Shown piece after piece: positions 1,210-25,793 of a DNA stretch of 25,793 nucleotides. Under the pieces are notes generated by a model. That model had not been told where the DNA came from. It ran no database searches and was given only the letters and a program-made list of their open reading frames with translations. Made by a program: the position numbers and the translations under genes. The DNA is taken from the IMG/VR virus record IMGVR_UViG_3300037264_000108, positions 1-25,793 of that record, one strand, 5' to 3'. Each line of letters opens with the position of its first letter. Positions within the stretch are counted from its first letter, which is position 1. This DNA is from a virus.

Positions 1210-1245
1210 CTCACACCTTCGGGGGATTCTGTGGGGAGGCGACAG
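1210..1245 (-). promoter_or_regulatory. Repeated 36-bp element, copy E
   Basis: On the minus strand this reads CTGTC, 21 bases, AAGGTGTGAG, matching both halves exactly. The spacer carries GAATCCCCC where other copies have GATTCCACC. It begins right at the TGA of the collar-domain gene, and its final G touches the ATG of the gp25-like gene. If transcription started at the right half, the message would be nearly leaderless. If it acts in RNA, AAGGTG serves as the ribosome site. The function is inferred only. Confidence 0.7.
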
Positions 1246-2469
1246 TCACGAGAACGCCTCACTGAACGATGGGGTGAACGCTGTGATGGGCAACGGGCCT
1301 CCCAGAGAGTCGCCGTAAGGGTCCACATTTGGACACCCGGACGAAATGATCCTCTGACCATCGGTCAAAGGTGACGAGAAAGGCACCGTGAAGTACGGAA
1401 TCCCAATCTCAAGATCAGGCTTGATGGAAACCACAACCATCACCCAATCATCGGGGCTTACGAACTCTCCGTACGCAACCACATCCTCTGGCTCCAGCAA
1501 CAATCTCCCAGAGATGTCGATGAACGCAGCCGAGTCTCCATACGAGTACGAAGCCAAGCTCTGCCATTCGAGAGGAGCTTGGTTCCACGGTCCATTGACG
1601 GCTACTTCTCCGGGGTTCGTGTCGTTGAGGTTGTGCGCCCGCATGAGCATGGCGACGAGGAAGGCGTTGTTCTCCGTCGGGATGATCCGGCAGAAGGGCT
1701 GCTCTGCTGTCACCCCGACCTGGACCTCGACCACATCGACCGGCACATCGTTGGCTCCGGTCACCCGCAGAGGGGTGGCAACGAGCAGAGGAGTGCGTCC
1801 ATCGAGGGTGATGGTGTACGAACCCGCCACCGGGGTCGTGCCTTCTCCGAGCCAGACCTCAGCCCGAGTGCCGTGCTTCTTCGTCTGAGCTTGGGCGATT
1901 CTCGTCCATGTCAGTCCATTACCAGTGATCGAAGTGACTTCCGTTGCCTCCCAGTCACAGAAGGTCACCGGGAGAAGGATCACCTCTCCGGCTTCAGGGG
2001 TCCACGAGGGCGACACCACCGGAGCACCTACATCGACCGATGAGGTCTGACCATCGGGGAGAGACCAGTTGATCTGGTTGCCGACCGGCCCGTGGATCTC
2101 CTTGAGCAGCCTGTAGAGATCGGGGTACACCGCCTGAGCCACATGCCGCCCATCGGCCGGGAGATGGCACTCAGGCACCTCTCCTGGGCCATGCAGCTTG
2201 ACCGCCCCCAGGAAGTCCACAGGCTCGGGCTGGACCGTCTCGGCCATCACCGCAGCGAAGCTCCACGGCCCGAGAGATCGGTCGATGACCCAGGATTCCC
2301 CCGCCTTCGGGCGTAGTCCCTTGTGACGCATCACGTCGGTACGGATCTTCATACGGTGCCCGAGTTGATCGACCGTCTCGGCCATCCCTTCGTCGGTGAC
2401 ATGCAGCACCTTGACCAACCTCGGTGCCCCGTATGCGCCCTCTTGGGCTGTCGCCTTCTGTCGTGTCAT
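1246..2469 (-). CDS. Tail-collar-domain baseplate protein
   Basis: A 407-residue protein. Residues about 1-80 look like a small beta domain. Residues about 86-141 resemble the phage tail collar domain: a short beta segment, PADGR, a YPDLYRLLKEIHGP helix, then WSLPDGQ, matching the family pattern of ...DG...YP.L....G........LPD. The remainder is beta-rich, containing for example TPEAGEVILLPVTFCDW, and could be a carbohydrate-binding or fibre-like module. It lies between the hub gene and the gp25-like gene, so a baseplate spike, collar or short-fibre attachment role is likely. The start ATG has a weak AGGGG site six bases upstream. The stop TGA abuts the repeated element at 1210-1245. The structural role is confident; the exact role is not. 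Confidence 0.7.
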   Translation of the reverse strand: MTRQKATAQEGAYGAPRLVKVLHVTDEGMAETVDQLGHRMKIRTDVMRHKGLRPKAGESWVIDRSLGPWSFAAVMAETVQPEPVDFLGAVKLHGPGEVPECHLPADGRHVAQAVYPDLYRLLKEIHGPVGNQINWSLPDGQTSSVDVGAPVVSPSWTPEAGEVILLPVTFCDWEATEVTSITGNGLTWTRIAQAQTKKHGTRAEVWLGEGTTPVAGSYTITLDGRTPLLVATPLRVTGANDVPVDVVEVQVGVTAEQPFCRIIPTENNAFLVAMLMRAHNLNDTNPGEVAVNGPWNQAPLEWQSLASYSYGDSAAFIDISGRLLLEPEDVVAYGEFVSPDDWVMVVVSIKPDLEIGIPYFTVPFSSPLTDGQRIISSGCPNVDPYGDSLGGPLPITAFTPSFSEAFS

Positions 2470-2478
2470 CCCATGCCC

Positions 2479-6024: not shown

Positions 6025-6026
6025 CG

Positions 6027-7010: not shown

Positions 7011-7020
7011 GAATCATCTC

Positions 7021-9657
7021 TCAGGGCGTGCTGGCGGAAGGAACGCCAGACATCTGATCGGAAGCAGTAGATCCATCCTGGTTGACCTTGAGCCATCCGT
7101 CGAGCTTCCTATCGGTCGTGATGTTGACATTGACCTGTTGGTACGCCGCTTCCTCACGTCCTTTCTTGATTTCCTTTAGCAACTTCGATGCGGCGGAACG
7201 CTTGAGTTCGCTGCCGCTCTGAGTCATCTTGTAAAGATCGGCACTATCCTCTGGAGAAAGCCCAAGCTGAGAAACTTCCTTCTCGAAAGCTGCTCGTTTC
7301 TCATCTACTTCTTGACCAACCATTCCGGTCACTTTCTTGCCCATGACCTGCTCTGTCCTCTTAGCGGACTTCTTCTCGGATTTCACCGAAGAGTAGCGTT
7401 CCTTGAACCCGAACTCATCAGCAACGGTCCTATTAGTGCCAGCCTCTCGGGCAGTACCGAATACTACTTGGTCGATGTATCCATACCCGATGGCTGCTTC
7501 TAGTGTCATGGTTCGCTCACCTTCCTTCGTAGAGAAGATGAACTGACGATTCTTGTTCTTCCCCCAGTCTTGGAACATGGCCTCAAGAGCAGGACTCTGC
7601 TCCCCTCCGCCACTACGCCACTCGGCGTAAGCCGCACGAGAACGATCACTCCCTAGGAATCCGGTTTCTTCTAGAGTAGTTTCCCCAGCCATCAACTGAG
7701 CAAACTTGACTTCTTGGCCCATGCTTTGCAAGTGCATTCCAAGCTGTTCTCTGGCGTACTTGGATGTACCTCCCGCCTTACTCACTTCGCCCTTTACATC
7801 GACGCCCTTCTTGGGAGCCATCGACTTCTTCAGGGCTTCCTGGGCTACAGATTTACCCAAGAAGATTTGGGCGATCAACTCTGCAACATTTGACTGATCT
7901 ACCGAACCTGGAGCGAAACTTCCAACCATAGGATTGTTCTGTAGTGCCCCAACTACGAAATCAACCCTATTGCCTAGATGTTCGTAGATGAGTGGCACTA
8001 GAGCATCAGCCTCAAACTCCGTCATTTGTCCAGGCTGGACGTTGTTTGTTTGTGCCCAACCGTTTATAAGACCAGTAATACCGGGAGCAAACATCTCAAG
8101 TTGTTGCTTTAGTTCGGCTTCTGTCTTGGCCTCGATGATTGCAGCGCCCTCAGTAGTAGACCCAAGGTTGATAAGCTGACCTTGGGTCATACCCATCGTA
8201 TGTGCTGTATAAGCCAAATTACTACTTCCTCGTACAGCCCCTCGAAGCTCGTGACCGTAGGACGTGGCGACCTCTGCACGAGAGGCTGCCATCACGGTGG
8301 CTCCCTGGCCTCCGTAAACCTTCGACATCGCAGCGAAGGACTCCTCGAAGGTCTGACGGGCCACCTTGGCGTTCATCCCAGCCTCTCGGGCGCTCTTGGT
8401 GACTCCCTTGAGGGCTTCCCCGATGTCGTCGAGAGCGGTGACCCCCTCCTCTGCTGCCAGCTTGAGCACCCGGCCGGACTCCTCGGGGGACATGCCAAGC
8501 GACTTGTAGAGGCCGGTCGAGACATCCTGGTAGCGGTTCCTCATGGTGCGATCGGTGCCGTAAAGCTCCATTGCTCCCTTGTAGATCGCCTCAGCGTCCT
8601 TGCCGCCCATCTGTCCGAAGACCCGGTTCTGCAACGTGAAGCCGAACTGCTTGGCTCGTTCTCCGAACCCCTCAGCATTCGAGCCTCCGAGCACCGACTG
8701 GTACTCCATGTTCGCTCGACGCTGCTCTGCGGCGAAGTCCAACACTCGATTCCCGGCTTCGTACGCCAGTCCAGCAACAGCCAACCCAGCCCCGACCTTG
8801 GGCAGCCCTTTGCCAACTGCTGCTCCAAACCCCTCGCCCTGAGCCATGCTCTGAGCAACGGTGCGACCAGTCCGAAGCGTTGCCTGTGTCTTCATAAACC
8901 GGCTCACTCGGGGATCAGATGGAGCAAGCGCAGGCCCATAGGCATTGCCCGTCGATCCAATACGCCGCATCCCTCGCATGAATCCATTCGACTCTGCAAA
9001 GGCGGGATCAGCCGTCAAGTCTCGGGCAAGAGCGTCAGCCACTCGATTGCCCTCGGGGTCGTACCAGACAGTCTTGGCCTCGGCATACCGAGGACCGACG
9101 TTGACTTCACTGAGCCACTGGTCTGCCCGCTCTCCCACTCGGGTTCGGATGCCTCCGATGCTGAACGGCGTGTGAGCGACCGCTGGAGATCCAATCATGG
9201 ACCTGCCCCCAGCGAACGATGAAGGCCAAGGGGTCACATGGCTCCCAACCGCCTGCGTCGGTTGTTCCGCTCCGGCTGGCATACCCGATCCGGCTCGCAT
9301 GGATGACGTTGGTGTGACATCTCCTGTGCTCGCAGGACTAATGCTGAAAGGACCGTCACCGGCACCTACCGCACCTACTCCCCCACGACCTCGACCACCG
9401 GGAGTGGAGATCGCTCCGCTGCCGATGGCTGCCTCGACAGTTCGCACTCGATCCTCAGCGGTGCCAAGAAACTTCGCTGTCCTCTCGGCCAGCTTCACCA
9501 TGTCACTGGCAATCTTCTGCTGTTCCCGCTGGGCTGCGATGCTTGACTCCAGGAACCCCTGGAACGCCTTGAGGACCGTCAAAGAGTCAGTCGGCTGCCC
9601 AGCGATACTTCGCTGGCCGAGCGCATCGACAGAGCCGTCCCGGGGCTTCTCAGGCAT
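7021..9657 (-). CDS. Tape measure protein
   Basis: An 878-residue protein, the equal longest in the window, placed right after the frameshifted chaperones as tape measures are. Residues about 28-75 are a coiled coil (AFQGFLESSIAAQREQQKIA ... VKLAERTAKFLG). Residues 80-170 are a Gly/Pro/Ser linker. Residues about 283-302 are a hydrophobic Gly/Ala stretch (LPKVGAGLAVAGLAYEAG). The rest is mostly helical, with a lysine/glutamate-rich C-terminal coil. By the usual rule of about 0.15 nm per residue this predicts a tail near 130 nm. The ATG overlaps the chaperone stop by eight bases, with GGAGG upstream. Bases about 7100-8230 are clearly lower in GC than 8230-9657, although this is one gene. Confidence 0.9.
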   Translation of the reverse strand: MPEKPRDGSVDALGQRSIAGQPTDSLTVLKAFQGFLESSIAAQREQQKIASDMVKLAERTAKFLGTAEDRVRTVEAAIGSGAISTPGGRGRGGVGAVGAGDGPFSISPASTGDVTPTSSMRAGSGMPAGAEQPTQAVGSHVTPWPSSFAGGRSMIGSPAVAHTPFSIGGIRTRVGERADQWLSEVNVGPRYAEAKTVWYDPEGNRVADALARDLTADPAFAESNGFMRGMRRIGSTGNAYGPALAPSDPRVSRFMKTQATLRTGRTVAQSMAQGEGFGAAVGKGLPKVGAGLAVAGLAYEAGNRVLDFAAEQRRANMEYQSVLGGSNAEGFGERAKQFGFTLQNRVFGQMGGKDAEAIYKGAMELYGTDRTMRNRYQDVSTGLYKSLGMSPEESGRVLKLAAEEGVTALDDIGEALKGVTKSAREAGMNAKVARQTFEESFAAMSKVYGGQGATVMAASRAEVATSYGHELRGAVRGSSNLAYTAHTMGMTQGQLINLGSTTEGAAIIEAKTEAELKQQLEMFAPGITGLINGWAQTNNVQPGQMTEFEADALVPLIYEHLGNRVDFVVGALQNNPMVGSFAPGSVDQSNVAELIAQIFLGKSVAQEALKKSMAPKKGVDVKGEVSKAGGTSKYAREQLGMHLQSMGQEVKFAQLMAGETTLEETGFLGSDRSRAAYAEWRSGGGEQSPALEAMFQDWGKNKNRQFIFSTKEGERTMTLEAAIGYGYIDQVVFGTAREAGTNRTVADEFGFKERYSSVKSEKKSAKRTEQVMGKKVTGMVGQEVDEKRAAFEKEVSQLGLSPEDSADLYKMTQSGSELKRSAASKLLKEIKKGREEAAYQQVNVNITTDRKLDGWLKVNQDGSTASDQMSGVPSASTP

Positions 9658-10614
9658 CTTCCAGATCCTCCGGCCGCAAAGTCACCGAACGCCCGAGGAA
9701 GGAGAGCACATCTTCGACATCTCCCTTGTTCATCTCAGGCATCACTAGCTCCATCGGCTCATCGTTGTCATTGGTCAGGTCAACTTCTTCGCCACCATCC
9801 TCAAGGAACCACTCAGGCCACAGCCCACTGATCGACCCTCGACCCTCTCTCGAAAGCAGATGGAGCCTGAACTGATCGACGAACTTCTCGGACTCGATGC
9901 GATCATCAACCGCCATGAGGATCTGCAAGCCGAAGCGTTGCACTGAGTTGATCTTCAGTGATCGGTAGAGACCCTGGCGTTCGGCTAGACGGAGTTGACC
10001 CTCAAGCCAAGGGTCGCATCGGCCTAGCCCGACGCTTTTCCCATCGACTCCAAGACCCGATCCACGACCTCTTCAAGAAGCAGGTACTCCTCGTACACAG
10101 CATCGAGAACGGGCGGGAACCAGTGATTCCTGACGTAGTGGAAACGATTGCGGAGGATGGTGTCCGTGCTCTCGTCGGTGATGGGTAGAGGTGGTGTCTT
10201 CCCATCGACGGTCACGATGCAGGCTGCCGTGATGGCTGCCTGGTATGCCTTGATCTCCCCCAGCGTCCCGACGTAGGGCTTGTGGAGGATTCCGACCTCG
10301 ATGACCTCATCTACCGTCAGCGTGCGGATCAAGAAGTCGTGGCCGTACCGGCTGAACGTCTTCGTGAGCGCCCCGAGGTAGTTCAGACCAACGAAGTCCT
10401 CTCGGCATCTGGGGTCGAACTCAGGTAGCTCCTCATCCTCCGCTTCCCCATCATCGGCGGCGGGTGACCGTTGTGCCTCCACATCTGCGGGAGGCGGAGC
10501 AAAGCTCGACGCCTCCGGGGCTAGTGATTGGGCACCGACCTCCTGGGGATCGAAAGGAGCGTACTCGGAGGCTGTGGCCTCCAAGACCCCATCTCGGTTG
10601 TCATCGACCGGCAT
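9650..10614 (-). CDS. Tail assembly chaperone, -1 frameshift fusion product
   Basis: This is the long product made when ribosomes slip by -1 at GGGAAAA (10036-10042). The first 193 residues are those of the short chaperone, ending in Lys. The new frame then reads SVGLGRCDPWLEGQLRLAER and stays open for 128 residues to TGA at 9650, giving about 321 residues. There is no stop between the slip site and the downstream segment containing VQRFGLQILMAVDD, and that segment has no convincing start of its own. The arrangement equals lambda gpG/gpGT: two overlapping frames directly before the tape measure, whose long product binds the tape measure while tube subunits add. The slip site and frames are seen directly; the function is from the conserved phage family. 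Confidence 0.85.
10024..10614 (-). CDS. Tail assembly chaperone, short form
   Basis: A 196-residue protein terminating normally at TAG 10024. Residues about 1-65 are disordered and acidic (ADDGEAEDEELPEFD). The remainder (NYLGALTKTFSRYGHDFLIR, then LTVDEVIEVGILHKPYVGTL, then TDTILRNRFHYVRNHWFPPV) looks helical and resembles the N-terminal half of chaperones from long-tailed phages. It has an AAGGAGAGG ribosome site seven bases before the ATG. It follows the tube gene and precedes the tape measure, the canonical location. The last five codons contain the slip site for the long form, so most ribosomes would make this product and a minority the fusion. Confidence 0.85.
   Translation of the reverse strand: MPVDDNRDGVLEATASEYAPFDPQEVGAQSLAPEASSFAPPPADVEAQRSPAADDGEAEDEELPEFDPRCREDFVGLNYLGALTKTFSRYGHDFLIRTLTVDEVIEVGILHKPYVGTLGEIKAYQAAITAACIVTVDGKTPPLPITDESTDTILRNRFHYVRNHWFPPVLDAVYEEYLLLEEVVDRVLESMGKASG
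10036..10042 (-). other. -1 ribosomal frameshift slippery heptamer GGGAAAA
   Basis: In the zero frame the codons are ATG GGA AAA GCG, giving G GGA AAA, an exact X XXY YYZ heptamer. It is followed three codons later by the zero-frame TAG at 10024. The -1 frame entered here is open to 9650. I did not resolve a clear downstream pseudoknot by eye. Confidence 0.85.
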
Positions 10615-11155: not shown

Positions 11156-12610
11156 CTATGCGAACGTCGTGGCACCAGTGGTGGTGTCGATGGCGAAGGT
11201 GACGAGGACGTAGTTCAGCGGGTAGGCAGGCGAGTAGAGGAACTTGACCTCCATCACCGTCGGATCTCCACCCTCTTCGCCCAACTGCTGCCGAACCTTG
11301 ATCTCTCGGTAGCCGTTGATGGTCCCGGCCTTCACCAAGGACTCCAGGCCACCCTGCACCACACTACGCACTTGGACAGGCGTGTTGGCGGTGATCGGAG
11401 ATCCGATGAGGCCCGAGTTGTCGAGCATGTCCGTCAGAAGCCGGACCATCTCGTCCTTCGCCCTGGTGAGCGAGAACTCCCGGGTGAGGACGTTCGACGG
11501 GTCAGTGGCAACCCCATGCCGATTCACGAGTCGGTTCTGTCGGTTGATCTCCACCACCGACACTCCACTCGATGACCACAGGTTCTTGTTGGCCTGGGTC
11601 ATGGTGGCGAACACGTCAGCCGGGATACCAGAGAAGCCCCGAATGTCCTTCTTGGTAAGAGCCTGCTGAGAAGGCAGCGAAGCGAAACGACCGGCATATG
11701 CAGCAGCCAGGTAGTAGCCCGACACCTCGATCACTGTGTTGCTGAACCCGTTGTAGTAGTTCATCTTGTTCGGGTAGGCGAACATCACCCGAGACGAGTT
11801 GATCCCACCAGAGATGTCCTCGGGGTCCACCGTGACGGTCTTCTCGTAGCCGACGATGCCGACCCGGAAGTAGCCATCCCCGCTCAGACCTTCCACATGA
11901 GTCTTGAGGTCGGTGCCGACGTTGATTACATCGCCAGGAGCCATATCTGTACCTGTGATGCCAACCGGAAGCGGAACCACGATGGCAACGTCATACAACG
12001 ACTCGATCTGCTCGTAGGCGTCAGTGAGTTGCGTTCTGGTCACCGCCGAAGGAGTGCCCTCTGATGCCACGAGCACGAGCCGGGCTGCTCCGTTGTCGAA
12101 GGCAAACTTCGCCGCCATCGACAGAGGCGACAGGATCTCTCCGGTCTGGGTGTCGAACGGCTGGCCGTACGCTTCCTTCACCCGGTCGAAGTCCGACACC
12201 GTGAGCGGCTGGAAATAGGCCGCATCGGTGTATTGGTAGCTGACTCTCACCGTTTCGGGGTCAGCGATCGCACCACCACCATCTCGGGCGATGTCGGTCG
12301 TGTTGTCCTGAGTCGTCAAGAGGCTGGCATCCTCGCCAGCGCCTTCGGTGAGGTTGTAGTCCACCGTATCGACGTAGGTGGTCAGCCCATCAAGGCTCAT
12401 CACCACGATGCTGCCCTGGTCGATGCCGAGCTTCGTTAGACGAACATCGGTGGTGCCGCTGAGGGTCACCAACTCCGTGAACGTCCTATACCCCACTGAG
12501 GGGCCAACCAGCACTACCGCCGTCGGCAAAGGGCCGAGGGCGGCGACAAGTGGCGTCTCCTCCTCCGTGAAGTAGACGCCAGGGGGCTGGTATTGCGTGA
12601 AGTCGGGCAT
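11156..12610 (-). CDS. Tail sheath protein
   Basis: A 484-residue protein. The N-terminus (YQPPGVYFTEEETP, then TAVVLVGPSVGYRTFTE) is the sheath hallmark of a P-G-V-Y opening and an early V-x-x-x-G-x-S/A segment. The middle contains FDNGAARLVLVASEGTPSA and the VVPLP segment. The C-terminal domain (TREFSLTRAKDEMVRLLTDM, then NTPVQVRSVVQGGLESLVKA, then a final NYVLVTFAIDT strand) matches the conserved sheath C-domain that links neighbouring subunits. This gene establishes that the tail is contractile. The start has AGGGAG six bases upstream and lies 18 bases downstream of repeated element C. Confidence 0.95.
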   Translation of the reverse strand: MPDFTQYQPPGVYFTEEETPLVAALGPLPTAVVLVGPSVGYRTFTELVTLSGTTDVRLTKLGIDQGSIVVMSLDGLTTYVDTVDYNLTEGAGEDASLLTTQDNTTDIARDGGGAIADPETVRVSYQYTDAAYFQPLTVSDFDRVKEAYGQPFDTQTGEILSPLSMAAKFAFDNGAARLVLVASEGTPSAVTRTQLTDAYEQIESLYDVAIVVPLPVGITGTDMAPGDVINVGTDLKTHVEGLSGDGYFRVGIVGYEKTVTVDPEDISGGINSSRVMFAYPNKMNYYNGFSNTVIEVSGYYLAAAYAGRFASLPSQQALTKKDIRGFSGIPADVFATMTQANKNLWSSSGVSVVEINRQNRLVNRHGVATDPSNVLTREFSLTRAKDEMVRLLTDMLDNSGLIGSPITANTPVQVRSVVQGGLESLVKAGTINGYREIKVRQQLGEEGGDPTVMEVKFLYSPAYPLNYVLVTFAIDTTTGATTFA

Positions 12611-12627: not shown

Positions 12628-12663
12628 CTCACACCTTCTGTGGAATCACCCCGCCCCGGACAG
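12628..12663 (-). promoter_or_regulatory. Repeated 36-bp element, copy C
   Basis: CTGTC, 21 bases, AAGGTGTGAG on the minus strand, both halves exact, with GATTCCACA inside the spacer. It fills the gap between the tail-terminator-like gene and the sheath gene, starting two bases after the upstream stop and ending 17 bases before the sheath ATG. A separate AGGGAG ribosome site follows, so the right half is not needed as the ribosome site here. That favours a DNA-level role. Confidence 0.7.
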
Positions 12664-16052: not shown

Positions 16053-16937
16053 TCAATAGAACGAGTAGTAGTACCTCGGCCGGGCTGCTGCCGAGCCAGG
16101 TAGTCTGGTGGGTCCGAACCTGCCGTACACCCCACCAGAGACGAGCACCCCGGGGGAGCCGAGGTTCATCGAGGCGATCTTGAACGTCTCAAGACGCTCA
16201 CGGAGATCCTTCTCCTCCATGTCCAGAATCGTCTGCCAACGGGTGAGGTAGTCCCTCCGGTCGAGCCATGCGACCGACACGTTGCGAGGGTCAGGCTGCT
16301 CGACGTAGCTCCTCATCAAGTGCTTCAGGATCTCGACGTAGAGCGCCTGCTCCAAGAGCGCACCCCACTGAGCGAGCGGGAAGTTCGTGAGGTCGTAGGT
16401 CTGGTGAGGTTGGGCGATCGTGTTGAGCCGTCCCACCGCAACCCGGAGAAGCTGCGCCATGCGTCCTCGACCGAAGGCGGTCTGGAAGTAGACCTGAAGA
16501 TGAGGACCGCCGTAGGGCGAGTCATACAGGTCACGGAAGCGGATGTACGTCTGCTCGACGAGCGCCTTCATCTCCGGCGAGAGGGCGTCGTAGTCCGGGT
16601 GGGCCGCTCCAACCTCCAAGAAGCTCTCGTAGGTCTGGGGCACCGCAGCGATGTCGTAGGACCAGATGAGCTTGTAGAGGCCCGGAGTCTGCGTGTGGGC
16701 CGACGTGAGGGTGAACTCGAACGTGCCCGTAGAGATGTAAGTGGCCGCAGTAGGAGCGAAGATGACCGTGGGAACGGCCGGAGGCGGTTCGTCCGTCTCC
16801 ATGCTCACATCAGCCGTAGCTCCGTCTGGGTCGGCAGGAACCCCAGCGATATGGACGACCAGACCGAAGGTCGGCTGATCGAACTGGGAGACGTAGACCC
16901 GATCGAGAAGGGCATAGGGATCGACGACCGACACCAC
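16053..16937 (-). CDS. Neck-region structural protein with Ig-like N-terminal domain
   Basis: A 294-residue protein from GTG 16937, which shares a base with the previous TAG (TAGTG). Residues 1-105 are strand-rich (FGLVVHIAGVPADPDGATAD, TGTFEFTLTSAHTQTPGLYK, LIWSYDIAAV), resembling an Ig or BppU-like domain. Residues 115-260 are helical (LSPEMKALVEQTYIRFRDLY, MAQLLRVAVGRLNTIA, ALLEQALYVEILKHLMRSYV), ending in a glycine/tyrosine tail (ARPRYYYSFY). The helical part could be a connector or adaptor domain. No family is recognised with confidence. Confidence 0.6.
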   Translation of the reverse strand: MVSVVDPYALLDRVYVSQFDQPTFGLVVHIAGVPADPDGATADVSMETDEPPPAVPTVIFAPTAATYISTGTFEFTLTSAHTQTPGLYKLIWSYDIAAVPQTYESFLEVGAAHPDYDALSPEMKALVEQTYIRFRDLYDSPYGGPHLQVYFQTAFGRGRMAQLLRVAVGRLNTIAQPHQTYDLTNFPLAQWGALLEQALYVEILKHLMRSYVEQPDPRNVSVAWLDRRDYLTRWQTILDMEEKDLRERLETFKIASMNLGSPGVLVSGGVYGRFGPTRLPGSAAARPRYYYSFY

Positions 16938-17527
16938 TACACCTCGACCACATCGAGGGTGATCTTCGCTGTGGTATCAGCCTCCATCGTGGTCGTCGTG
17001 CCGTCGGTCTTCATCCTCAGAGCGTAGGTGAACGCCCCCGACCCACCAGGCAGGTCGAAGAACTCGATGGACCCAGCCGAGTCGGGGTTCTCGTAGAACC
17101 TCTCGATCAGATCGGTGACGCCACGACGAATGCGGATGAACGCATCATCGCCAGTCATGTTCCGCCACGAGGCCACTACTCGAATGCGGCGGTTGCCCTC
17201 GGGCACCATCACACCAACCGAGGTGACGGTCTGGAACGCTGCCGTGTTCTCGATGAAGTCGGTGGTGCGTTCAACCCGACCGAGATGGCCTGTGGGGGCA
17301 AGACGTTGGAACGTCGCTCCATCCCATCGGTACACAAGGCCCGTGTCCGGCTGAGACCAGAGCATTCCCTCTTGGGGGATGCCCCAGACTGGAGGGCTTC
17401 CAGAGTCCTCGATAAAGGTGCCCGGATGGTCGTCGAGGATCTGCCAGTTGGCAGCGATCTCCGCCGTATCGAAGTTGTCGGTGGTGATCGGCTTGGCGAT
17501 CCCGAGTCTGGCGCTTGGAGTTGGCAT
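16937..17527 (-). CDS. Fibre-like virion protein
   Basis: A 196-residue protein. The N-terminus (ARLGIAKPITTDNFDTAEIA then ANWQILDD) carries the same KP-x4-DN-x-D...AN(W/Y)xxLD motif as the protein at 14289-14894. Then comes GMLWSQPDTGLVYRWDGATF, typical of short fibre repeats, and a beta-sandwich C-terminus (RRIRVVASWRNMTGDDAFIR, RIRRGVTDLIERFYENPDSA, GSGAFTYALRMKTDGTTTTM). It is a probable appendage or head fibre. The ATG lies eight bases after repeated element D, with GAGG seven bases before the start. Confidence 0.65.
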   Translation of the reverse strand: MPTPSARLGIAKPITTDNFDTAEIAANWQILDDHPGTFIEDSGSPPVWGIPQEGMLWSQPDTGLVYRWDGATFQRLAPTGHLGRVERTTDFIENTAAFQTVTSVGVMVPEGNRRIRVVASWRNMTGDDAFIRIRRGVTDLIERFYENPDSAGSIEFFDLPGGSGAFTYALRMKTDGTTTTMEADTTAKITLDVVEV

Positions 17528-17535
17528 CTGTCGTC

Positions 17536-17571
17536 CTCACACCTTCGGTGCCGTTAGCTTCTTCTCGACAG
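17536..17571 (-). promoter_or_regulatory. Repeated 36-bp element, copy D
   Basis: CTGTC, 21 bases, AAGGTGTGAG on the minus strand, both halves exact. The spacer is the most divergent (AACGGCACC instead of GATTCCACC). It sits in the widest gap of the window, between a 9-bp-stem hairpin (17574-17602) and the ATG at 17527. A hairpin immediately followed by the element resembles terminator then promoter. Confidence 0.65.
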
Positions 17572-17573
17572 GA

Positions 17574-17602
17574 CAGCGACCCCCGAGAACCGAGGGTCGC
17601 TG
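17574..17602. terminator. GC-rich hairpin, possible terminator or RNA processing site
   Basis: CAGCGACCC at 17574-17582 pairs perfectly with GGGTCGCTG at 17594-17602 across an 11-base loop. There is no U-run on the transcribed strand, so classical intrinsic termination is uncertain; such U-poor hairpins are often proposed as terminators in high-GC bacteria. It lies 35 bases after the SAP-like gene and two bases before element D. Positions 17603-17636 hold nothing recognisable. Confidence 0.5.
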
Positions 17603-17636
17603 CCGAGGAACCGGGTTGGACGGGAGGGAGTGTTGC

Positions 17637-17969: not shown

Positions 17970-17988
17970 GATGACTCCTTGATCCGGC

Positions 17989-18534: not shown

Positions 18535-18557
18535 AGCTTTTCTCCCTGTTCAGAGCC

Positions 18558-19453: not shown

Positions 19454-19456
19454 GGA

Positions 19457-20080
19457 TCAGGTCGCCTGAACCAGAATCTCCAGAACTCCCGCCCCAGCGG
19501 TGAAGGCGGTGACCGCAGCAGCCTCGACCTCGATGGCCTGACCGGCGAGGAAGGCGTTGTCGCCTGTGGTCGGGTCGGAACCCGTCGTGATCTCACCGAC
19601 TGACGAGGTATTCGCCAGGGGGAGGACGAGAGTGGCGTCGGGAGAACCGACGTTGGTGGCCCCGATCTCCAAGTTGAAGGTGATGGTCGCAGCGGCTCCG
19701 GTGCCGACCTCGGTGGTCAGGAAGCGCCAGGAGAGGATGTCGCCATCGAAGCCCGGCATGTCGATCGAACCACCGGAGGGGATCGAAGGAGGAACACCCG
19801 GGATGATCGAGGTAACCGGGCCGTTCACGACCGAAGCCAGATCGAGTGCTACCTGGACGATGAACAGATCAGCGGAGCCAGGCAGGGGGATGGTCCCTCC
19901 TACGAGGTCGAGAACCGTGCCCAGCAGGGCGACGTTCAGATTCGAGAACTCCTCGTCGTTGAGGGCAACGATGTCCCCCGGCTCGTAGGGGTAACCATCC
20001 GGTAGTTGGACGATTCCCTGACCGGAGCGGACCCGGACGAGGTTGTGGCGAGGCCAGTCGTAAGCGGCTTGGGTGCCCAT
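19457..20080 (-). CDS. Virion accessory protein, LPNG-domain paralogue 2
   Basis: A 207-residue protein. Residues about 13-62 (HNLVRVRSGQGIVQLPDGYP then YEPGDIVALNDEEFSNLNVA) carry the shared N-terminal domain. The C-terminal domain is strand-rich (ILSWRFLTTEVGTGAAATIT, FNLEIGATNVGSPDATLVLP, AIEVEAAAVTAFTAGAGVLE), like a jelly-roll decoration domain. The ATG has GGGAG six bases upstream and is 26 bases downstream of repeated element B, which makes it the first gene of a putative unit. Confidence 0.6.
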   Translation of the reverse strand: MGTQAAYDWPRHNLVRVRSGQGIVQLPDGYPYEPGDIVALNDEEFSNLNVALLGTVLDLVGGTIPLPGSADLFIVQVALDLASVVNGPVTSIIPGVPPSIPSGGSIDMPGFDGDILSWRFLTTEVGTGAAATITFNLEIGATNVGSPDATLVLPLANTSSVGEITTGSDPTTGDNAFLAGQAIEVEAAAVTAFTAGAGVLEILVQAT

Positions 20081-20106
20081 GTGATCTCCCTGGAGGGTCG
20101 TTTCCT

Positions 20107-20142
20107 CTCACACCTTGGGTGGAATCAGAGGGGTTGGGACAG
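20107..20142 (-). promoter_or_regulatory. Repeated 36-bp element, copy B
   Basis: CTGTC, 21 bases, AAGGTGTGAG on the minus strand, both halves exact, with TGATTCCACC in the spacer. It occupies the 69-base gap between the stop of the gene at 20150 and the ATG at 20080. It is closest to copy A on the left (CTGTCCCAACCCC in both) and to copy C on the right. Confidence 0.7.
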
Positions 20143-20149
20143 GCTCGGG

Positions 20150-20533
20150 CTACTCCTCGACCACCACGAGGTCGTTGCCCGCATCGTTTGTTGCGATTGT
20201 AAGAGAGCCGGGACTCTCGAAGATGTATGGCATACCCCCGGGAAGCCCGGCGATTGGCTGTCCATCCACCGTGGGACGGTCTGCTGTCGGTCCTCCCGTG
20301 GGGGAGATGACGTAGATGGTGACCTTCCTTGCCGAAGCAGAAGTCACATGACTCAGGGCGTCTCCGGTGAGCGGAGTGATCGTCGGGCCAGAAGGACTGG
20401 TAGCCGCCTGAATCTCGTCTGAGGCTGTCTCCCACTCGATCTGGGTCAGTTCCTCGGCCCCAGGTTCGCCCGAGAGGTCTACATCGTCAGGGGAGGTGCC
20501 CAGAGAAGCAGGACCGAAGCGCCAGTACCTCAT
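20150..20533 (-). CDS. Virion accessory protein, duplicate of a C-terminal domain
   Basis: A 127-residue protein whose start overlaps the upstream stop (ATGA). Residues about 64-127 (HVTSASARKVTIYVIS, ADRPTVDGQPIAGLPGG, SLTIATNDAGNDLVVVEE) align by eye with the C-terminal 90 residues of the preceding protein (RITSTSARRVLILWEN, ASRPTVNGIPLF, ITIRTNLGTDDLTVVEEL). This looks like a tandem domain duplication. The N-terminal 60 residues (RYWRFGPASLGTSPDDVDLS) are unique. It is probably a surface-exposed decoration or fibre protein. Confidence 0.6.
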   Translation of the reverse strand: MRYWRFGPASLGTSPDDVDLSGEPGAEELTQIEWETASDEIQAATSPSGPTITPLTGDALSHVTSASARKVTIYVISPTGGPTADRPTVDGQPIAGLPGGMPYIFESPGSLTIATNDAGNDLVVVEE

Positions 20534-21261
20534 AGCTCCTCCACAACAGTCAGATCGTCGGTCCCCAGATTCGTACGGATGGTAATAGCCGGGAGAGTTC
20601 CGTCGCAGTTCAAGTCACCGATGACGATGGAAGCACCACCTTGGGAGGACTGTTGGAACAGCGGAATGCCGTTGACCGTGGGGCGAGAGGCTGATGCAAG
20701 TGCTGAGTTCTCCCACAGGATCAGCACCCTTCGGGCCGAAGTCGATGTAATCCGTTGTGCCGTGGCTACAGGAAAGGCGTCAAAGACCCGGGTGACGATG
20801 ATCGTGCTCGGTTGGGGTTGTGCCCCACCAGAAGTGATGTTGACATCGACAGGCGTGGAATCGTCGATCGTTACGGTGCCATCGACGGTGATGATCCCGC
20901 CACCATCGTCGATCGAGAGGGTAAAACCCCCGTCATCGACTGTCAGGGAACCGCCGTTGTCATCCACCGAAACCGGCTCGGTAACCGAAACCGTGCCATC
21001 GACCGTGATACTGCCCCCGCCATCGCTGACCGTGACCGTGCCAGGGATGGAAACGGACCCTGTGACCTTCACCGCATCGGCGTCGATGGGGATGTTGTCA
21101 AGCTCGTCGCCTGGGGCAACGAGAACGATCGTCCCGATGATCGAAGGCGGGATCGAGGCGAACTCAGCGTCGGTGAGGTCAGCCTCCTCCCCCTCGGCGT
21201 AGACCCTTCCGTTGGGGAGAACGATCGCCTTGTAGCCCGGAGCTATCGAGACGTGGATCAT
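20530..21261 (-). CDS. Virion accessory / fibre-like protein with DGGG repeats (LPNG paralogue 1)
   Basis: A 243-residue protein. Residues 1-55 (YKAIVLPNGRVYAEGEEADL then TDAEFASIPPSIIGTIVLV) are the shared N-terminal domain. Residues about 68-145 are short beta repeats built on DGGGSITVDGTV-like units (SVDDNGGSLTVDDGG, LSIDDGGGIITVDGTV), which would form an extended solenoid or shaft. Residues about 150-243 form the C-terminal domain duplicated in the next gene. It has a strong GAGGAGGG ribosome site. It is a plausible capsid fibre or long decoration protein, encoded next to the nuclease inserted after the capsid gene. Confidence 0.6.
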   Translation of the reverse strand: MIHVSIAPGYKAIVLPNGRVYAEGEEADLTDAEFASIPPSIIGTIVLVAPGDELDNIPIDADAVKVTGSVSIPGTVTVSDGGGSITVDGTVSVTEPVSVDDNGGSLTVDDGGFTLSIDDGGGIITVDGTVTIDDSTPVDVNITSGGAQPQPSTIIVTRVFDAFPVATAQRITSTSARRVLILWENSALASASRPTVNGIPLFQQSSQGGASIVIGDLNCDGTLPAITIRTNLGTDDLTVVEEL

Positions 21262-21297
21262 GGGTCAGCCCTCCTCATCCCTTCCCTGCTCTTGGAG

Positions 21298-22029
21298 CTA
21301 GGAAGGCAGGAAGGAAGAGAACATCTCGATGAATGACTGGCGATCCGCCCTGCGGAGTCGGTCGATCTCGTCGTATCCGAGGACGACAAGGATTCCCCGC
21401 TCGGTCTTCCATGCGGTCCACTTTGCATCGTCGTCCGGGTGTTCCTGGCCCTTGACCTCGATCCACAGATCGAGTTGCGGGATGTAGAGGTCTGGGGCAT
21501 ACCAGCCCGAATCGAGCTTGATGGCCGTAGCCCGATTGACTCGCTCGATGCCGACTTTCAGGAAGGATGCCAAGCACCAGACTAAGCCTTCCCATGAGGA
21601 GTCAAGCAGTACGTCCTCATCCCGAAAGGCGAGATGGTGCTTCGTCTTAGTGTGTTTCTGAGCGCATTCGTTCGAGCAGAACTTGTGCCCTGGAGCAGAT
21701 TTCCTACGAACCACTTCTTTGCCGCATGTTCGGCAATAGAATGTGATGTAGTTTTCTGGTTTGGACTGCTTCTTCTTCCCGTACTTCTTACGGCACTCAT
21801 CGGAGCAGTATTGCTTGTAGGTGTAGACGTTCTTTCCAGTAGCAGATCGTCTTGGAATGACCGCTCCGCATGAGCATGTCTTGTCAGGCTTTCGTACTGC
21901 ATCTGCGCCTTCTAGGTTCCGGCACATAGCCGAGCAGAAACGGGCCTTGGAAAAACGAGACGGAGCCACCGCAAAGGTGACCCCGCATCGTTCGCACGTC
22001 TTGGAAATCTTCGTAGATGCTCGTGGCAT
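21298..22029 (-). CDS. Free-standing PD-(D/E)XK nuclease with three zinc modules, probable homing endonuclease
   Basis: A 243-residue protein that does not belong to virion structure. Three short zinc modules come first: C12/C15/C32/C36, C52/C54/C75/C79 and C99/C102/C118/C122, each ending in FCS- or YCS-x-x-C. A nuclease domain follows, with E147 (DSSWEGLVWCLASF), D180 (WYAPDLYIPQ) and E191-V-K193 (LWIEVKG), the PD-x10-ExK catalytic pattern. Zinc modules plus this fold suit DNA-recognising mobile nucleases of phages. It sits alone between the major capsid gene and the fibre-like gene. Its zinc-coding half is lower in GC (a hand count of 21721-21780 gives about 47%), a sign of transfer. The ribosome site is weak. 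The activity is inferred from the motif. Confidence 0.75.
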   Translation of the reverse strand: MPRASTKISKTCERCGVTFAVAPSRFSKARFCSAMCRNLEGADAVRKPDKTCSCGAVIPRRSATGKNVYTYKQYCSDECRKKYGKKKQSKPENYITFYCRTCGKEVVRRKSAPGHKFCSNECAQKHTKTKHHLAFRDEDVLLDSSWEGLVWCLASFLKVGIERVNRATAIKLDSGWYAPDLYIPQLDLWIEVKGQEHPDDDAKWTAWKTERGILVVLGYDEIDRLRRADRQSFIEMFSSFLPS

Positions 22030-22039
22030 CCCGTAAGAG

Positions 22040-22063
22040 TGACAGGGGTTCTCGATCCTGTCA
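22040..22063. other. Inverted repeat between capsid and nuclease genes
   Basis: TGACAGG (22040-22046) pairs with CCTGTCA (22057-22063) across a ten-base loop, in the 48-base gap after the capsid stop. It could attenuate transcription into the nuclease gene, or be a nuclease or regulator site. There is no U-run. It does not match the 36-bp element beyond CCTGTC. Confidence 0.45.
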
Positions 22064-22077
22064 ATCTACACAGGGTT

Positions 22078-23070
22078 TCACGGCTTTTCTACTGTCGAAA
22101 TCCCTCTTGGATTCAGGATCGCCATGCTGACCATCTCGTCGAAGACCCAGCCCTTCCAGAACGCCTCGACGTTGTGGTTCTCCTCGACATCCAGCGAGTA
22201 GAGGACGGGGAACACACCGAGGAAGTCGGGGTTCGGGAGGATGAAGAGCTTGTTCGTCGGCACGGTGATCGACCGCTGGAACTGGAACTCACCGAAGGTG
22301 GTGATGGTCTCACCGGCCACCACTCGGTCCTTGAAGGCCCAGCCCGTCTGGTTGATGTCCCAGCGGTAGAAGTCACGGAAGTCGAGCGGGCTGACGAGGA
22401 TGCGGCCCGCCGGGATCTCGTGCATGTCCGTCTGAGCGATCGCCGTGTAGAGGCTCTGCGGGGTGAAGTACCCCGAGGTCTCGGTGATCGTGTGATCCGG
22501 GGTGATCGTGTGATCCGGCCGGGTGGCGTAGTTCGTGACTGCCGCCTGGAGGATCACCAGCAGTCGGGAGTCCTCCTGCCGCATGATCGCCTGCTTGGTC
22601 TCGTCCTGAGCCTGCTCGACGACGTTGACCCGCAGGTAGTAGAGGTCTTCCTTGCGGATCGCCGGACGGGAGGCGATGCGGAAGAACCGCACCGGCACTC
22701 GCTTGCCCTCGAACGGGGTCACTCGGACCTCGCCCTCGGTGCCCGACATGATGTACGCCTGGCCGAGATCGTCCCACACGTCGTACTCGACGGGGGTACC
22801 CGGGGTGATCGGGTCTTCCATCAGCACGTTGCGGACGATGCCCTGGTAGCGCAGCTTCAGTTGGATAGGACCAACCATGCCGACACCAAGGCGACGGATG
22901 CCGTCGTTGCTGTCCTTGAGGACGAGTGCCATCTTCCGCATCTTCGCCTCGTGGGTGAGTGCGGACTTCGACGGATCGTTGCCCCGGCGCTTGAGGATGT
23001 CGGAGACGTAATCGTCCGACTTCTTGGCAACCCTGGGGCGCAGGCCCGATGCGAGTTGGAGGGTGCTCAT
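22078..23070 (-). CDS. Major capsid protein
   Basis: A 330-residue protein starting MSTLQLASGLRPRVAKKSDD. I chose ATG 23070 because AGGAG lies 12 bases upstream, and an earlier in-frame ATG would overlap the decoration gene by about 86 bases. The N-terminal helical arm (SALTHEAKMRKMALVLKDSN) is followed by strands (IQLKLRYQGIVRNVLMED), an E-loop-like region, and a P-domain-like segment (YLRVNVVEQAQDETKQAIMR). The C-terminal half (IPAGRILVSPLDFRDFYRWD, then PTNKLFILPNPDFLGVFPVL, ending MAILNPRGISTV) resembles HK97-fold capsid proteins of large tailed phages. An exact 18-bp tandem duplication at 22483-22518 encodes PDHTIT twice. The position after a scaffold-like and a decoration-like gene supports the call. 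Confidence 0.85.
   Translation of the reverse strand: MSTLQLASGLRPRVAKKSDDYVSDILKRRGNDPSKSALTHEAKMRKMALVLKDSNDGIRRLGVGMVGPIQLKLRYQGIVRNVLMEDPITPGTPVEYDVWDDLGQAYIMSGTEGEVRVTPFEGKRVPVRFFRIASRPAIRKEDLYYLRVNVVEQAQDETKQAIMRQEDSRLLVILQAAVTNYATRPDHTITPDHTITETSGYFTPQSLYTAIAQTDMHEIPAGRILVSPLDFRDFYRWDINQTGWAFKDRVVAGETITTFGEFQFQRSITVPTNKLFILPNPDFLGVFPVLYSLDVEENHNVEAFWKGWVFDEMVSMAILNPRGISTVEKP
22483..22518 (-). repeat. Exact 18-bp tandem duplication inside the capsid gene
   Basis: On the plus strand GGTGATCGTGTGATCCGG occurs twice back to back (22483-22500 and 22501-22518). It is in frame and inserts a second PDHTIT hexapeptide. Because the copies are identical, the duplication looks recent. Confidence 0.9.
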
Positions 23071-23110
23071 GGTGCGTTTGTTCTCCTGTGTGCTCTCGAA
23101 CTCGGACGGA

Positions 23111-23629
23111 TCAGGCCCGGACCGGCAGGCCACCGATGGTGAGGGTGGTGTCGGAGTTGACCTTGACAAGCCGTGCCACCGGATCGGTGGAGGCACCGAC
23201 GGTGCCAGCCGGGACGAGCTTGCCCCGAGTAGCGCCAGCGGTCTGTGCGTGGATCAGAAGCTCCGTACCGTCGGTCGGGTCCGTCCACACGAGAGAATCG
23301 TCGAACGCCGGAGCGTCCACCTCGAACTCAGCGTCGGGGCCGAGCACCCAGACTGCGAAGGCGTTGATGCCCGCATCCAGAAGCTCGTCGATGTCGTAGC
23401 CGCCAATGAAGTGGGCGGCAAGGCCGAGGGGGAACCCCGTGGCGTCGATCAGGTTGACCGTATCGCCGGTCGCCCCACGCATCATCACCATGCCCGGGAA
23501 GATTTCCGGGTCGGTGCTGCGGTCGTAGGCCGGGTCGAGGTACATCGCCTTCGGCGTGGTCTGAGTCCAGCCGTACAGCGGGCGAAGCGACCGCTTGATG
23601 TACGCCTGATCGAGAGTGGTGCGGATCAT
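23111..23629 (-). CDS. Probable capsid decoration / head accessory protein
   Basis: A 172-residue protein (MIRTTLDQAYIKRSLRPLYG ...). It contains PEIFPGMVMMRGATGDTVNL, then FPLGLAAHFIGGYDIDELLD, NAFAVWVLGPDAEFEVDAPA, and a C-terminal DTTLTIGGLPV. The order of a 'P-G-x-V/M' strand, a 'GLAA.F.gg' segment and late barrel-like strands resembles small decoration or head-stabilising proteins encoded beside capsid genes. The AGGAG site six bases before the ATG is clear. It is the first gene after repeated element F and is followed after 40 bases by the capsid gene, so the two shell proteins may be expressed as one unit. Confidence 0.7.
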   Translation of the reverse strand: MIRTTLDQAYIKRSLRPLYGWTQTTPKAMYLDPAYDRSTDPEIFPGMVMMRGATGDTVNLIDATGFPLGLAAHFIGGYDIDELLDAGINAFAVWVLGPDAEFEVDAPAFDDSLVWTDPTDGTELLIHAQTAGATRGKLVPAGTVGASTDPVARLVKVNSDTTLTIGGLPVRA

Positions 23630-23650
23630 GCTCTGCTCCTGCTGCTCTGC

Positions 23651-23668
23651 GAGTGAGGTCTCTCACTC
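23651..23668. other. Short hairpin in the leader of the decoration gene
   Basis: GAGTGAG (23651-23657) pairs with CTCACTC (23662-23668) across a four-base loop. It overlaps the right half of element F and lies upstream of the AGGAG ribosome site. It could stabilise the leader or control its translation. Confidence 0.45.
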
Positions 23669-23697
23669 ATTTCGTGGAAATGGACTGGGAAGGACAG
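23662..23697 (-). promoter_or_regulatory. Repeated 36-bp element, copy F
   Basis: CTGTC, 21 bases, AATGAGTGAG on the minus strand. The left half and spacing are exact, and the spacer core is TTTCCAC. The right half differs from AAGGTGTGAG at two of ten positions. It lies in the gap between the scaffold-containing gene and the decoration gene, 32 bases before that ATG. The changed right half can no longer act as a ribosome site, yet the rest is retained, which favours a DNA-level role. Confidence 0.6.
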
Positions 23698-23702
23698 GGT
23701 GA

Positions 23703-24545
23703 CTACTCGAAGAGAGCGTCATCCTGACCCGATGAGGCCGTTGCGAACATCGGCTCGGGCGGGGCGAGAAGAGCAGCGGTAGCCAACGAAGGCACCGTAC
23801 GCTCGACGTTGCGGCCCTGTTGACGGGCTGCGGTCTTGGGCTGGTTGGCGAGAACCGCCTCCAGCGTGTCGATCTCGTGGGCGATCTCCCGATCGCTCAT
23901 CTTCGACGTGGCGATGGTCTGCCCCAAGATGATGTCGTCGCCCTGGGCGATGCCTGCGGTCACCCGAAGGCGAGCAAGGCGGATCGCAGCGAAGGTACGA
24001 GCAGCAACGGTCTGCTGATCCGAGAAGGCCGGGGTCATGGGGTAGGCCGTCTCGGTGTCGAGTCCACGGAACTCCACATCGACCTCGGTGCGGATGTCTG
24101 CCGTGGGGACCGGCTCCTGGGTGCCAGCCACCGGAGCGGTCACATCCTGAGCCACCGCCGGAACGGCTGGGATCGAAGTGCCAGGGGCCATCACCGTGTC
24201 GATCATGGCCGGAGCCACGTTCGTCTCCGAAGTCCCCCCGGGAGCCACGACGGAATCGAGGCTCCCTCCGCCAGCCGGAGCGGCGTTGTTCACATCACCC
24301 AGCGTCTCGGGAGTCGAAGCCGGAGCAGGCTGGGCCGCAGGTTCGGGAACCGGCTGGGCCGGGTTCATCTCGTCTGCCAGCTTGGGCAGAGCGGCGATCC
24401 GTCGCTGTGCCTGGTGCTTGATCGCCTCGACCTGGGGCTTTACCCCCGCCAACCGGGCGATCATGTCGATCTGCGCCTGTTGGGCGTCGAGTTGAACCTG
24501 CTGCCGCCGAGCGATGTCAGCGATGGCTCGAAGTGCTGGACGCAT
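23703..24545 (-). CDS. Possible separate scaffold protein from internal in-frame start
   Basis: ATG 24545 (residue 414 of the long frame) is preceded by AGGAG with a seven-base spacing, as good as any site in the window, although it lies inside a gene. It would yield 280 residues beginning MRPALRAIADIARRQQVQLD: a coiled-coil start, a Pro/Ala-rich linker and a helical C-terminus, plausible for a scaffold. Repeated element A ends 20 bases upstream, exactly as other copies precede gene starts. Nested scaffold starts are known from lambda C/Nu3. Whether the product is made is inferred. Confidence 0.45.
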   Translation of the reverse strand: MRPALRAIADIARRQQVQLDAQQAQIDMIARLAGVKPQVEAIKHQAQRRIAALPKLADEMNPAQPVPEPAAQPAPASTPETLGDVNNAAPAGGGSLDSVVAPGGTSETNVAPAMIDTVMAPGTSIPAVPAVAQDVTAPVAGTQEPVPTADIRTEVDVEFRGLDTETAYPMTPAFSDQQTVAARTFAAIRLARLRVTAGIAQGDDIILGQTIATSKMSDREIAHEIDTLEAVLANQPKTAARQQGRNVERTVPSLATAALLAPPEPMFATASSGQDDALFE

Positions 24546-25793
24546 GGATTCACTCCTCATGGTCTTCCACACCTTGTGTGGATTTGCGGGGGTTGGGACA
24601 GGTCGCCGGACGACAAACCCGGACTTGGGCAACTTCTTGCGCCACTTATCGTCCTCATCGTCTTCCTCGTCCTCGTCATCTTCCTTGTCGTCCTCGTCGT
24701 CAGCCGACTGGTCAACGGGCTGGTCAGAGGACTTATCCGAAGGAGGAGGCTGCTCCTGCTGACCTTCGAGTAGTTCGGCAAGCTCCTGATCCTCGGTGGG
24801 GTCGCCTTCTTCATCGAGATCGACCTCGGCAAGCTCCTCGTCGATCTCCTCCACGCCATCAGGGAACTCGCCTTCCTCGCCGTCGATCTCCCCTTCCTGG
24901 GGAAGTTCTCCGCCGCCCTCGACTTCGGACTCGTCCCGAATCTCCTGGGCCTTGGTCAGATCGGGGTCCGAGAGGAAGTCCGGGGCAGCCTTGTACCCAC
25001 ACATCTGGCATTCATCACCATCGAAGTTCTGGTCGTTGCCACAGATCGGGCACATCTCATCACGGAGCGTGTCCACCTGGGGTGGGGCAACGGTCTCGCC
25101 GTATGCGTGCTTGCGTGCCACCTTGAACCCAGCCTTTCTCTGTGCAGCCATCCACGGACGGTTCATCCACCGTTGAGGGGCTACCTCGGACTCTTGTACC
25201 CGTTGCTGGGCATGATCGAATGACTCGTCCGAGACAGTGACGTACTGGTAGGGAGGTCCACCCCCAGATCGAACGGTGACCGTCTCAGGGTCGTCATGCT
25301 CGACGACGACCTTGCCATCGGGGATCTTCCCACTCGGACCACCAGTCGGCCAGGCAACATCGACCTCATCCCCAGGTGCATAGGCAACCCGGAAGCCGAG
25401 CTTGTTTCCGCATCGACAGTCGTTGATGAACCCACAGATCCCCTCGTCATCGAGGTCATCGGGGTCGATACCGATGTAGAAGCGGTGCGTCGGGGTGTGA
25501 GATGCCGCCTTGGCAAGCGAGACCGCCTGCTTCGACTTGAGGTCGTAGATGGCAAGCTGGCCGTGCTTGCGACCAAGCTCCTCGGCCTCCTTGCGGTCCT
25601 TCACCCACTGAGAGGTGTCGAGGTAGGTCTTGCCCTCATCGACCCATCCACCGAGGTAGCGATCACCTCCCCGCAGGTGCTTCTTCTTCGACTTGGCGTA
25701 CTGCCGGATGTCCGTAGGGGTCACGTCCCCGGACTTCACCTGCTCGTGGCCTCGGAGCGAGACCATGTAGCCCTTCTTGGGCACCGTCTCGTT
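23703..25793 (-). CDS. Long acidic head-region protein with zinc ribbon and scaffold-like C-terminus (5' end uncertain)
   Basis: The frame is open to the window edge; candidate starts are GTG 25784 (693 residues) and ATG 25766 (after AAGAAGG). Counting from GTG: residues 1-90 are a basic domain (VSLRGHEQVKSGDVTPTDIR, then DRYLGGWVDEGKTYLDTSQW, then GRKHGQLAIYDL). Residues 117-125 carry C-x5-C-x-C. Residues 245-262 are a zinc ribbon C-x2-C-x10-C-x2-C (CPICG ... CQMCGY). Residues 284-380 are strongly acidic. Residues 414-470 are a helical coil (RPALRAIADIARRQQVQLDA). Residues 475-565 are a Pro/Ala linker, and residues 570-665 are helical. The position just before decoration and capsid genes suggests a head-assembly role. 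The 3' third is scaffold-like and contains a repeated element and an internal start. No protease motif is clear. The function is unproven. Confidence 0.65.
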   Translation of the reverse strand, partial: NETVPKKGYMVSLRGHEQVKSGDVTPTDIRQYAKSKKKHLRGGDRYLGGWVDEGKTYLDTSQWVKDRKEAEELGRKHGQLAIYDLKSKQAVSLAKAASHTPTHRFYIGIDPDDLDDEGICGFINDCRCGNKLGFRVAYAPGDEVDVAWPTGGPSGKIPDGKVVVEHDDPETVTVRSGGGPPYQYVTVSDESFDHAQQRVQESEVAPQRWMNRPWMAAQRKAGFKVARKHAYGETVAPPQVDTLRDEMCPICGNDQNFDGDECQMCGYKAAPDFLSDPDLTKAQEIRDESEVEGGGELPQEGEIDGEEGEFPDGVEEIDEELAEVDLDEEGDPTEDQELAELLEGQQEQPPPSDKSSDQPVDQSADDEDDKEDDEDEEDDEDDKWRKKLPKSGFVVRRPVPTPANPHKVWKTMRSESMRPALRAIADIARRQQVQLDAQQAQIDMIARLAGVKPQVEAIKHQAQRRIAALPKLADEMNPAQPVPEPAAQPAPASTPETLGDVNNAAPAGGGSLDSVVAPGGTSETNVAPAMIDTVMAPGTSIPAVPAVAQDVTAPVAGTQEPVPTADIRTEVDVEFRGLDTETAYPMTPAFSDQQTVAARTFAAIRLARLRVTAGIAQGDDIILGQTIATSKMSDREIAHEIDTLEAVLANQPKTAARQQGRNVERTVPSLATAALLAPPEPMFATASSGQDDALFE
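24566..24601 (-). promoter_or_regulatory. Repeated 36-bp element, copy A (intragenic)
   Basis: CTGTC, 21 bases, AAGGTGTGGA on the minus strand. It matches the left half, the spacing and the first eight bases of the right half; the spacer core is AAATCCACA. It is the only copy inside an open frame. The TGA seen in four copies is TGG here, so translation passes through. CCACAC-AAG-GTGTGG forms a perfect short inverted repeat in this copy. Confidence 0.6.

Follow-up and report, generated by a model that had tools for sequence, protein, structure and literature searches.

What is the short two-part sequence that recurs, always in the direction of transcription, just ahead of gene starts in IMG/VR virus record IMGVR_UViG_3300037264_000108? 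The window analyzed here, the whole 25,793-base stretch, is a fragment of the late region of a contractile-tailed, Ceeclamvirinae-like phage, and every convincing gene in it lies on the minus strand. The original prediction described six copies of a 36-bp element, CTGTC followed after 21 bases by a second conserved half, and proposed a late promoter or a binding site for a phage regulator. That proposal is the best-supported reading of our results, which include placement before virion genes, avoidance of the early arc in most genomes with a checkable whole map, a sequence unlike that of sigma-70 promoters, polymerase-sized geometry, and the positions of start codons. From these sequence comparisons we consider it probable that the element is a family-wide late promoter of large actinobacterial myophages, whose family is itself large and mostly uncultured.

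We found seven copies in the window (Table 1), and every one shares the minus strand with the window's genes. The six described earlier were all recovered, four perfect and two with two mismatches, and their shared direction was borne out; copy 3 had been overlooked. No count of this size was attained in 100 shuffles of the window (mean, 0.89; maximum, 3). A weight matrix built from other phages only, with the window excluded, returned exactly these seven window sites at scores above 8 (18.1 to 29.4), while the top site on the opposite strand scored 3.4 and the top of 200 shuffles 17.1. As had been claimed, the copies sit just upstream of starts, with gaps of 0 to 32 nt, apart from copy 1, which lies inside a longer in-frame open reading frame (ORF) at an internal start. 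We predict a scaffold-like product behind that internal start because the copy in the same slot of most relatives sits in a gap interrupted by stop codons.

To find relatives we used the major capsid gene as a marker, which gave 275 candidates among viral contigs; the best 80 of the 275, with capsid proteins 76 to 85% identical, were kept. The nearest named relatives, at 72 to 74%, are 150-kb elements of Streptomyces sp. A0642, MH60, and RLB1-9, and the cultured ones, at 56 to 58%, are mycobacteriophages Phabba, Myrna, and HyRo, Rhodococcus phages E3 and Finch, and Gordonia phages Skog and Stormageddon. The RLB1-9 element (pRLB1-9.1, NZ_CP041653.1), which is present in a plasmid collection, is a circular plasmid carrying ParA/ParB together with virion genes; it and the A0642 and MH60 contigs are 150-kb phage-plasmids related to cluster C mycobacteriophages. 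The tail sheath retrieved no relatives when used as bait, and a megablast search of phages with the window's DNA gave no match.

The element is present in most of the relatives examined, and 182 distinct instances yielded the family logo TC-CTGTC-N10-Y-N-A-G-N-C-C-N3-G-AAGGGGTGA-RRR, in which the part after N3 can also be written GAAGGGGTGARRR. Its two conserved blocks cover about 39 bp, the size of a polymerase footprint, and where the family consensus reads AAGGGGTGAR, the window has the local variant AAGGTGTGAG, with GGTG in place of GGGG. The spacing between left and right halves is sharply peaked at N21 (172 copies, versus 6 at N22, 2 at N23, and 0 at N20), a rigidity already noticed in the window. 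Most spacer bases do vary, as stated before, and there is indeed a shared core, although its content is not the A-T-T-C-C-A-C first suggested; it is A18-G19-N-C21-C22 plus G26, and conservation of C22 within the family reaches about 99% even though the search pattern did not include it. Among 158 nonredundant copies we saw no complementary base-pair covariation inside the element. An RNA hairpin within it (CCCC..GGGG) was considered and rejected, since its loop position shifts and covariation is absent.

Genome-wide scans of the relatives gave, in the best cases, 14 to 17 forward copies per 154- to 160-kb genome (17, 16, 16, and 14 in contigs G006, G011, G015, and G007, respectively) and no reverse copy in any of the four. 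The original prediction would have been undermined by copies scattered at chance frequency on both strands and inside genes; instead, nearly every genome has no reverse copy at all, and of 85 copies counted across seven genomes or contigs, 77 lie mostly in noncoding DNA, versus 8.6 expected. In the annotated pRLB1-9.1, 15 of 16 matches lie 9 to 39 nt upstream of a same-strand RefSeq start. G016 (..GGTAGA), the 45% GC phage G008, and the Streptomyces elements carry variants of the element, and looser ones are present in Myrna (10 forward, 1 reverse), HyRo (8 and 0), and Skog (4 and 0), where reversed-pattern controls gave 0 to 1.

The copies fall mainly in the structural arc, a concentration that reaches significance in five of the seven genomes (G011, G015, G007, MH60, and pRLB; P values of 0 to 0.003), and most genomes add one about 2 kb past the start of the large terminase gene. 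The early arc is avoided in most genomes for which the whole map could be checked. Individual slots are also kept between divergent genomes, namely those before the sheath, gp25-like baseplate, and pre-capsid genes. The last two carry the element in most relatives, and the sheath slot is filled in the window and about a dozen relatives, including Myrna and HyRo (element at 67193-67229 and sheath start at 67254 in the latter). The slot of copy 1, about 1.5 to 2.3 kb before the capsid gene, is filled in more than 20 relatives, and that of copy 2, roughly 630 nt before it, in most.

The distances between element and start codon bear on where transcription might begin. Eight start codons lie at offsets of -2 to 0 from the element's end, only three at 1 to 6, and many from 7 onward with a GGAGG of their own; because our home-made start-caller picks late starts at long gaps, we interpret these distances only to about 30 nt. 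In the window, the baseplate ATG is flush with copy 7, where there is no room for a separate leader, whereas a short GGAGGTG leader precedes the orthologues. From this pattern we infer that the element acts as a promoter whose transcripts start at its end, at positions 35 to 38. By our reckoning, such a start would place CTGTC at about -33 to -37 and A27/A28 at about -8 to -11, giving a sigma-like geometry. CTGTC with the preceding TC would then serve as a -35-like recognition site, A18-G19...C21C22 with GAAGGGGTGA as an extended -10 or -10-like region, and transcription would begin on purines. Each copy would give its own late transcript, with some 7 to 17 dispersed promoters, rather than one late operon, feeding the virion genes.

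A further arrangement points the same way. In the three Streptomyces phage-plasmids, one copy lies just after the capsid gene and is followed by a conserved noncoding segment of about 81 nt with three hairpins and then by a second copy. The segment folds with z scores of -2.7 to -3.9, and its last, terminator-like stem stays paired through compensatory changes; we found no convincing Rfam match to it. The order is probably promoter, RNA, terminator, promoter, the segment being a likely small RNA served by a promoter and a terminator of its own.

The original prediction had noted that the element does not resemble a standard -35/-10 promoter. Our data agree, as no sigma-70-like site overlapped a copy in the scanned ranges of the window, which hold all seven, and the logo lacks TTGACA or TATAAT-like hexamers. 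Since the element does not have the sequence of a host sigma-70 promoter, the host RNA polymerase is most likely brought to it by a phage factor. A DxDGD motif scan for a multisubunit-type polymerase gave nothing convincing. The best candidate reader of the CTGTC half would be a protein of about 110 to 130 amino acids with a sigma region-4-like (r4-like) helix-turn-helix (for example, WP_143626633.1), which is encoded 2 to 12 kb before the large terminase gene with several genes between and was singled out by its co-occurrence with the element. Within the initial search set, all records longer than 100 kb encode it (G001, G006, G007, G008, G011, G012, G015, G016, G023, and two Streptomyces elements), and distant homologues occur in Skog, E3, and Finch and in 188 mycobacteriophage records, those listed being of the cluster C type (27% identity, E = 2e-3). 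The pRLB1-9.1 annotation calls it a "sigma-70 region 4 domain-containing protein," and one of three members exceeds the PF08281 cutoff (E = 9e-7), with the other two below it. Its AlphaFold model (pLDDT, 85) matches mostly sigma region-4 domains and, among viral models, proteins of Tonenili and Finch, of which the Finch one is named a sigma factor. We infer that this protein could be the element's factor, a hypothesis to which we give slightly less than an even chance. More tentatively still, a stand-alone region-4-like protein lacking region 2 may read the -35 while the host polymerase or an unrecognized partner opens the -10, making a split sigma factor across actinobacterial myophages and phage-plasmids.

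Several observations weigh against the late promoter and its proposed reader. All genes of these phages run in one direction, so orientation alone is weak evidence. G006 shows a weak or borderline late-arc bias (P = 0.057), and G023 shows none (P = 0.38). Hairpins are enriched just upstream of the element relative to other offsets but are no commoner there than in intergenic gaps elsewhere (P = 0.30); we therefore dropped upstream terminators as an argument for promoter function. The patterns used picked up no element in the E3 and Finch genomes, though both encode a distant r4-like protein, and G012, G041, and G042 encode the protein yet have few or no clear copies. Its fold matches in the PDB all have E values above 0.01. 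Region 2 (PF04542) was unmatched in 13 genomes, with control genomes positive, and we found no complete sigma factor; the T7-like polymerase family PF00940 was likewise unmatched, but so it was in its control genomes.

The alternative that survives best keeps the late promoter and changes its reader, which might be an unrecognized phage sigma-like protein, a modified host polymerase, or a host ECF sigma factor, the r4-like protein then being a small terminase subunit or an unrelated regulator. The proximity of its gene to the terminase gene, weak helix-turn-helix matches to small terminase structures, and the failure to find region 2 would all suit this possibility, which we regard as plausible without favoring it; the intervening genes, and the fact that the protein's best sequence and fold matches are to sigma region 4, speak against it.

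A second alternative is that the element is a repressor or silencer site that blocks transcription, like the stoperators of cluster A phages L5 and Bxb1. Stoperators are asymmetric intergenic sites in one orientation with many copies per genome (PMC3029335), as are the copies described here, and some carriers of the element are likely temperate because they are phage-plasmids with ParA/ParB. However, stoperators are 13-bp repressor sites, whereas the element spans 39 bp in two blocks 21 bp apart, is linked to gene starts rather than gene ends, lies mostly in the late arc, and in one case precedes a free-standing noncoding RNA. A related variant also occurs in cluster C phages, for which neither stable lysogens nor an integrase is known (PMC3029335), and we consider a stoperator-like role unlikely. 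Least probable of all is an RNA-level leader element, such as a translation-initiation or standby site or an mRNA processing site: AAGGGGTGAG can pair in part with the 3' end of 16S rRNA and in some copies directly adjoins the start codon, in a placement like that of start-associated sequences (SAS), but starts 1 to 6 nt past the element, the optimum for AAGGGG as a Shine-Dalgarno sequence, are nearly absent, for most copies a distinct GGAGG lies closer to the start (on spacing and separate sites we rejected AAGGGGTGAG as a Shine-Dalgarno sequence), covariation is lacking, the fixed 21-nt distance to CTGTC is left unexplained, and one copy precedes a noncoding RNA that has no start.

Table 1. 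Copies of the element (numbered in transcription order), genes of the window, and the Streptomyces noncoding segment; coordinates refer to the window unless another record is named
Feature	Coordinates	Strand	Details
Copy 1	24566-24601	-	CTGTC-N21-AAGGTGTGGA; putative in-frame internal start, ATG 24560 or 24548, in scaffold-like part of ORF 23703-25784
Copy 2	23662-23697	-	Right half AATGAGTGAG; 32 nt before ATG 23629
Copy 3	21274-21309	-	CTGCC-N21-AAGGGATGAG; 12 nt before ATG 21261; top window score, 29.4
Copy 4	20107-20142	-	26 nt before ATG 20080
Copy 5	17536-17571	-	8 nt before ATG 17527; preceded by strong inverted repeat
Copy 6	12628-12663	-	17 nt before tail sheath gene
Copy 7	1210-1245	-	Flush with ATG 1209 of baseplate wedge gene
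Scaffold-like product, internal in-frame start after copy 1	23703-24560	-	Presumed from position
Pre-capsid gene, behind copy 2	23111-23629	-	phrog_2783, E = 9e-30
Major capsid gene	22078-23070	-	phrog_2522, E = 3.8e-100; no element directly before
Gene behind copy 3	20530-21261	-	No PHROG match
Gene behind copy 4	19457-20080	-	No PHROG match
Gene behind copy 5	16937-17527	-	No PHROG match
Tail sheath gene, behind copy 6	11156-12610	-	phrog_2839, E = 2.7e-88
Baseplate wedge (gp25-like) gene, behind copy 7	781-1209	-	phrog_2669, E = 2.6e-23
Noncoding segment of about 81 nt	L208:46027-46106 (pRLB1-9.1 146027-146106); L262:495-575; L274:14435-14511		Three Streptomyces phage-plasmids

Several other features of the window deserve mention. 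An HNH endonuclease gene (21298-22029, minus strand) is inserted directly after the major capsid gene, with no element before it. The inverted repeat just upstream of copy 5 (GCGACCC..GGGTCGC, 17572-17601) is a possible terminator without a T run. A tail assembly chaperone pair (10024-10614 and 9650-9943, minus strand) likely uses a -1 frameshift at GGGAAAA, a site whose first G is at 10042, and the frame entered by the shift stays open as far as 9650. The large gene at 7021-9657 (minus strand) occupies the tape-measure position, and its GC content falls sharply from 62% to 52% near 8300, which marks a mosaic origin.

The phage group to which the window belongs spans cluster C mycobacteriophages, Streptomyces phage-plasmids, and many uncultured soil phages, and its late-gene control is apparently undescribed in the open-access literature. 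The promoter and start site predicted here, together with the named candidate for the factor, allow the late switch to be tested directly in Mycobacterium smegmatis and Streptomyces, and such work may bring to light a sigma-like factor that lacks region 2. The element also offers a sequence marker by which late operons could be annotated in phages from metagenomes.

The original prediction likened the element to the SAS of cluster K mycobacteriophages in placement and not in sequence, and this holds. The SAS is a 13-bp GGGATAGGAGCCC with a Shine-Dalgarno core, found 3 to 7 bp from the starts of nonstructural genes (PMC3203893). Both are short repeats in one orientation just before gene starts, whereas the element is a 39-bp, two-block sequence lying from 0 to well over 50 nt from the starts of mainly structural genes, and it shares neither the SAS sequence nor its characteristic distance.

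Late activators of the ArpU/RinA type are small helix-turn-helix proteins that resemble sigma region 4 and are encoded before terminase genes. Our candidate is likewise small, r4-like, and encoded before the terminase genes, but it was not matched by the ArpU/RinA families in NCBIfam, Pfam, and PHROG scans. The bipartite SigO-RsoA sigma factor of Bacillus subtilis, in which a region-4-like protein acts without a region 2 of its own, offers a precedent for such a protein; it differs in that no partner was found in our genomes. In T4 (gp55/gp33) and SPO1 (gp28 and gp33/34), phage sigma-like factors read phage-specific late promoters. As there, many short, dispersed promoters unlike the host consensus would stand before late genes here, and a phage factor would redirect the polymerase. 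Our candidate differs in having only a region-4-like domain, with no region 2 found, and the element in having a sequence unlike any of theirs, with a long, rigid 21-bp spacing between GC-rich halves. We found no description of the element, or of late-gene control in this phage group, in the open-access literature; as far as that literature shows, the element is new in sequence and belongs to a general kind that is already known.

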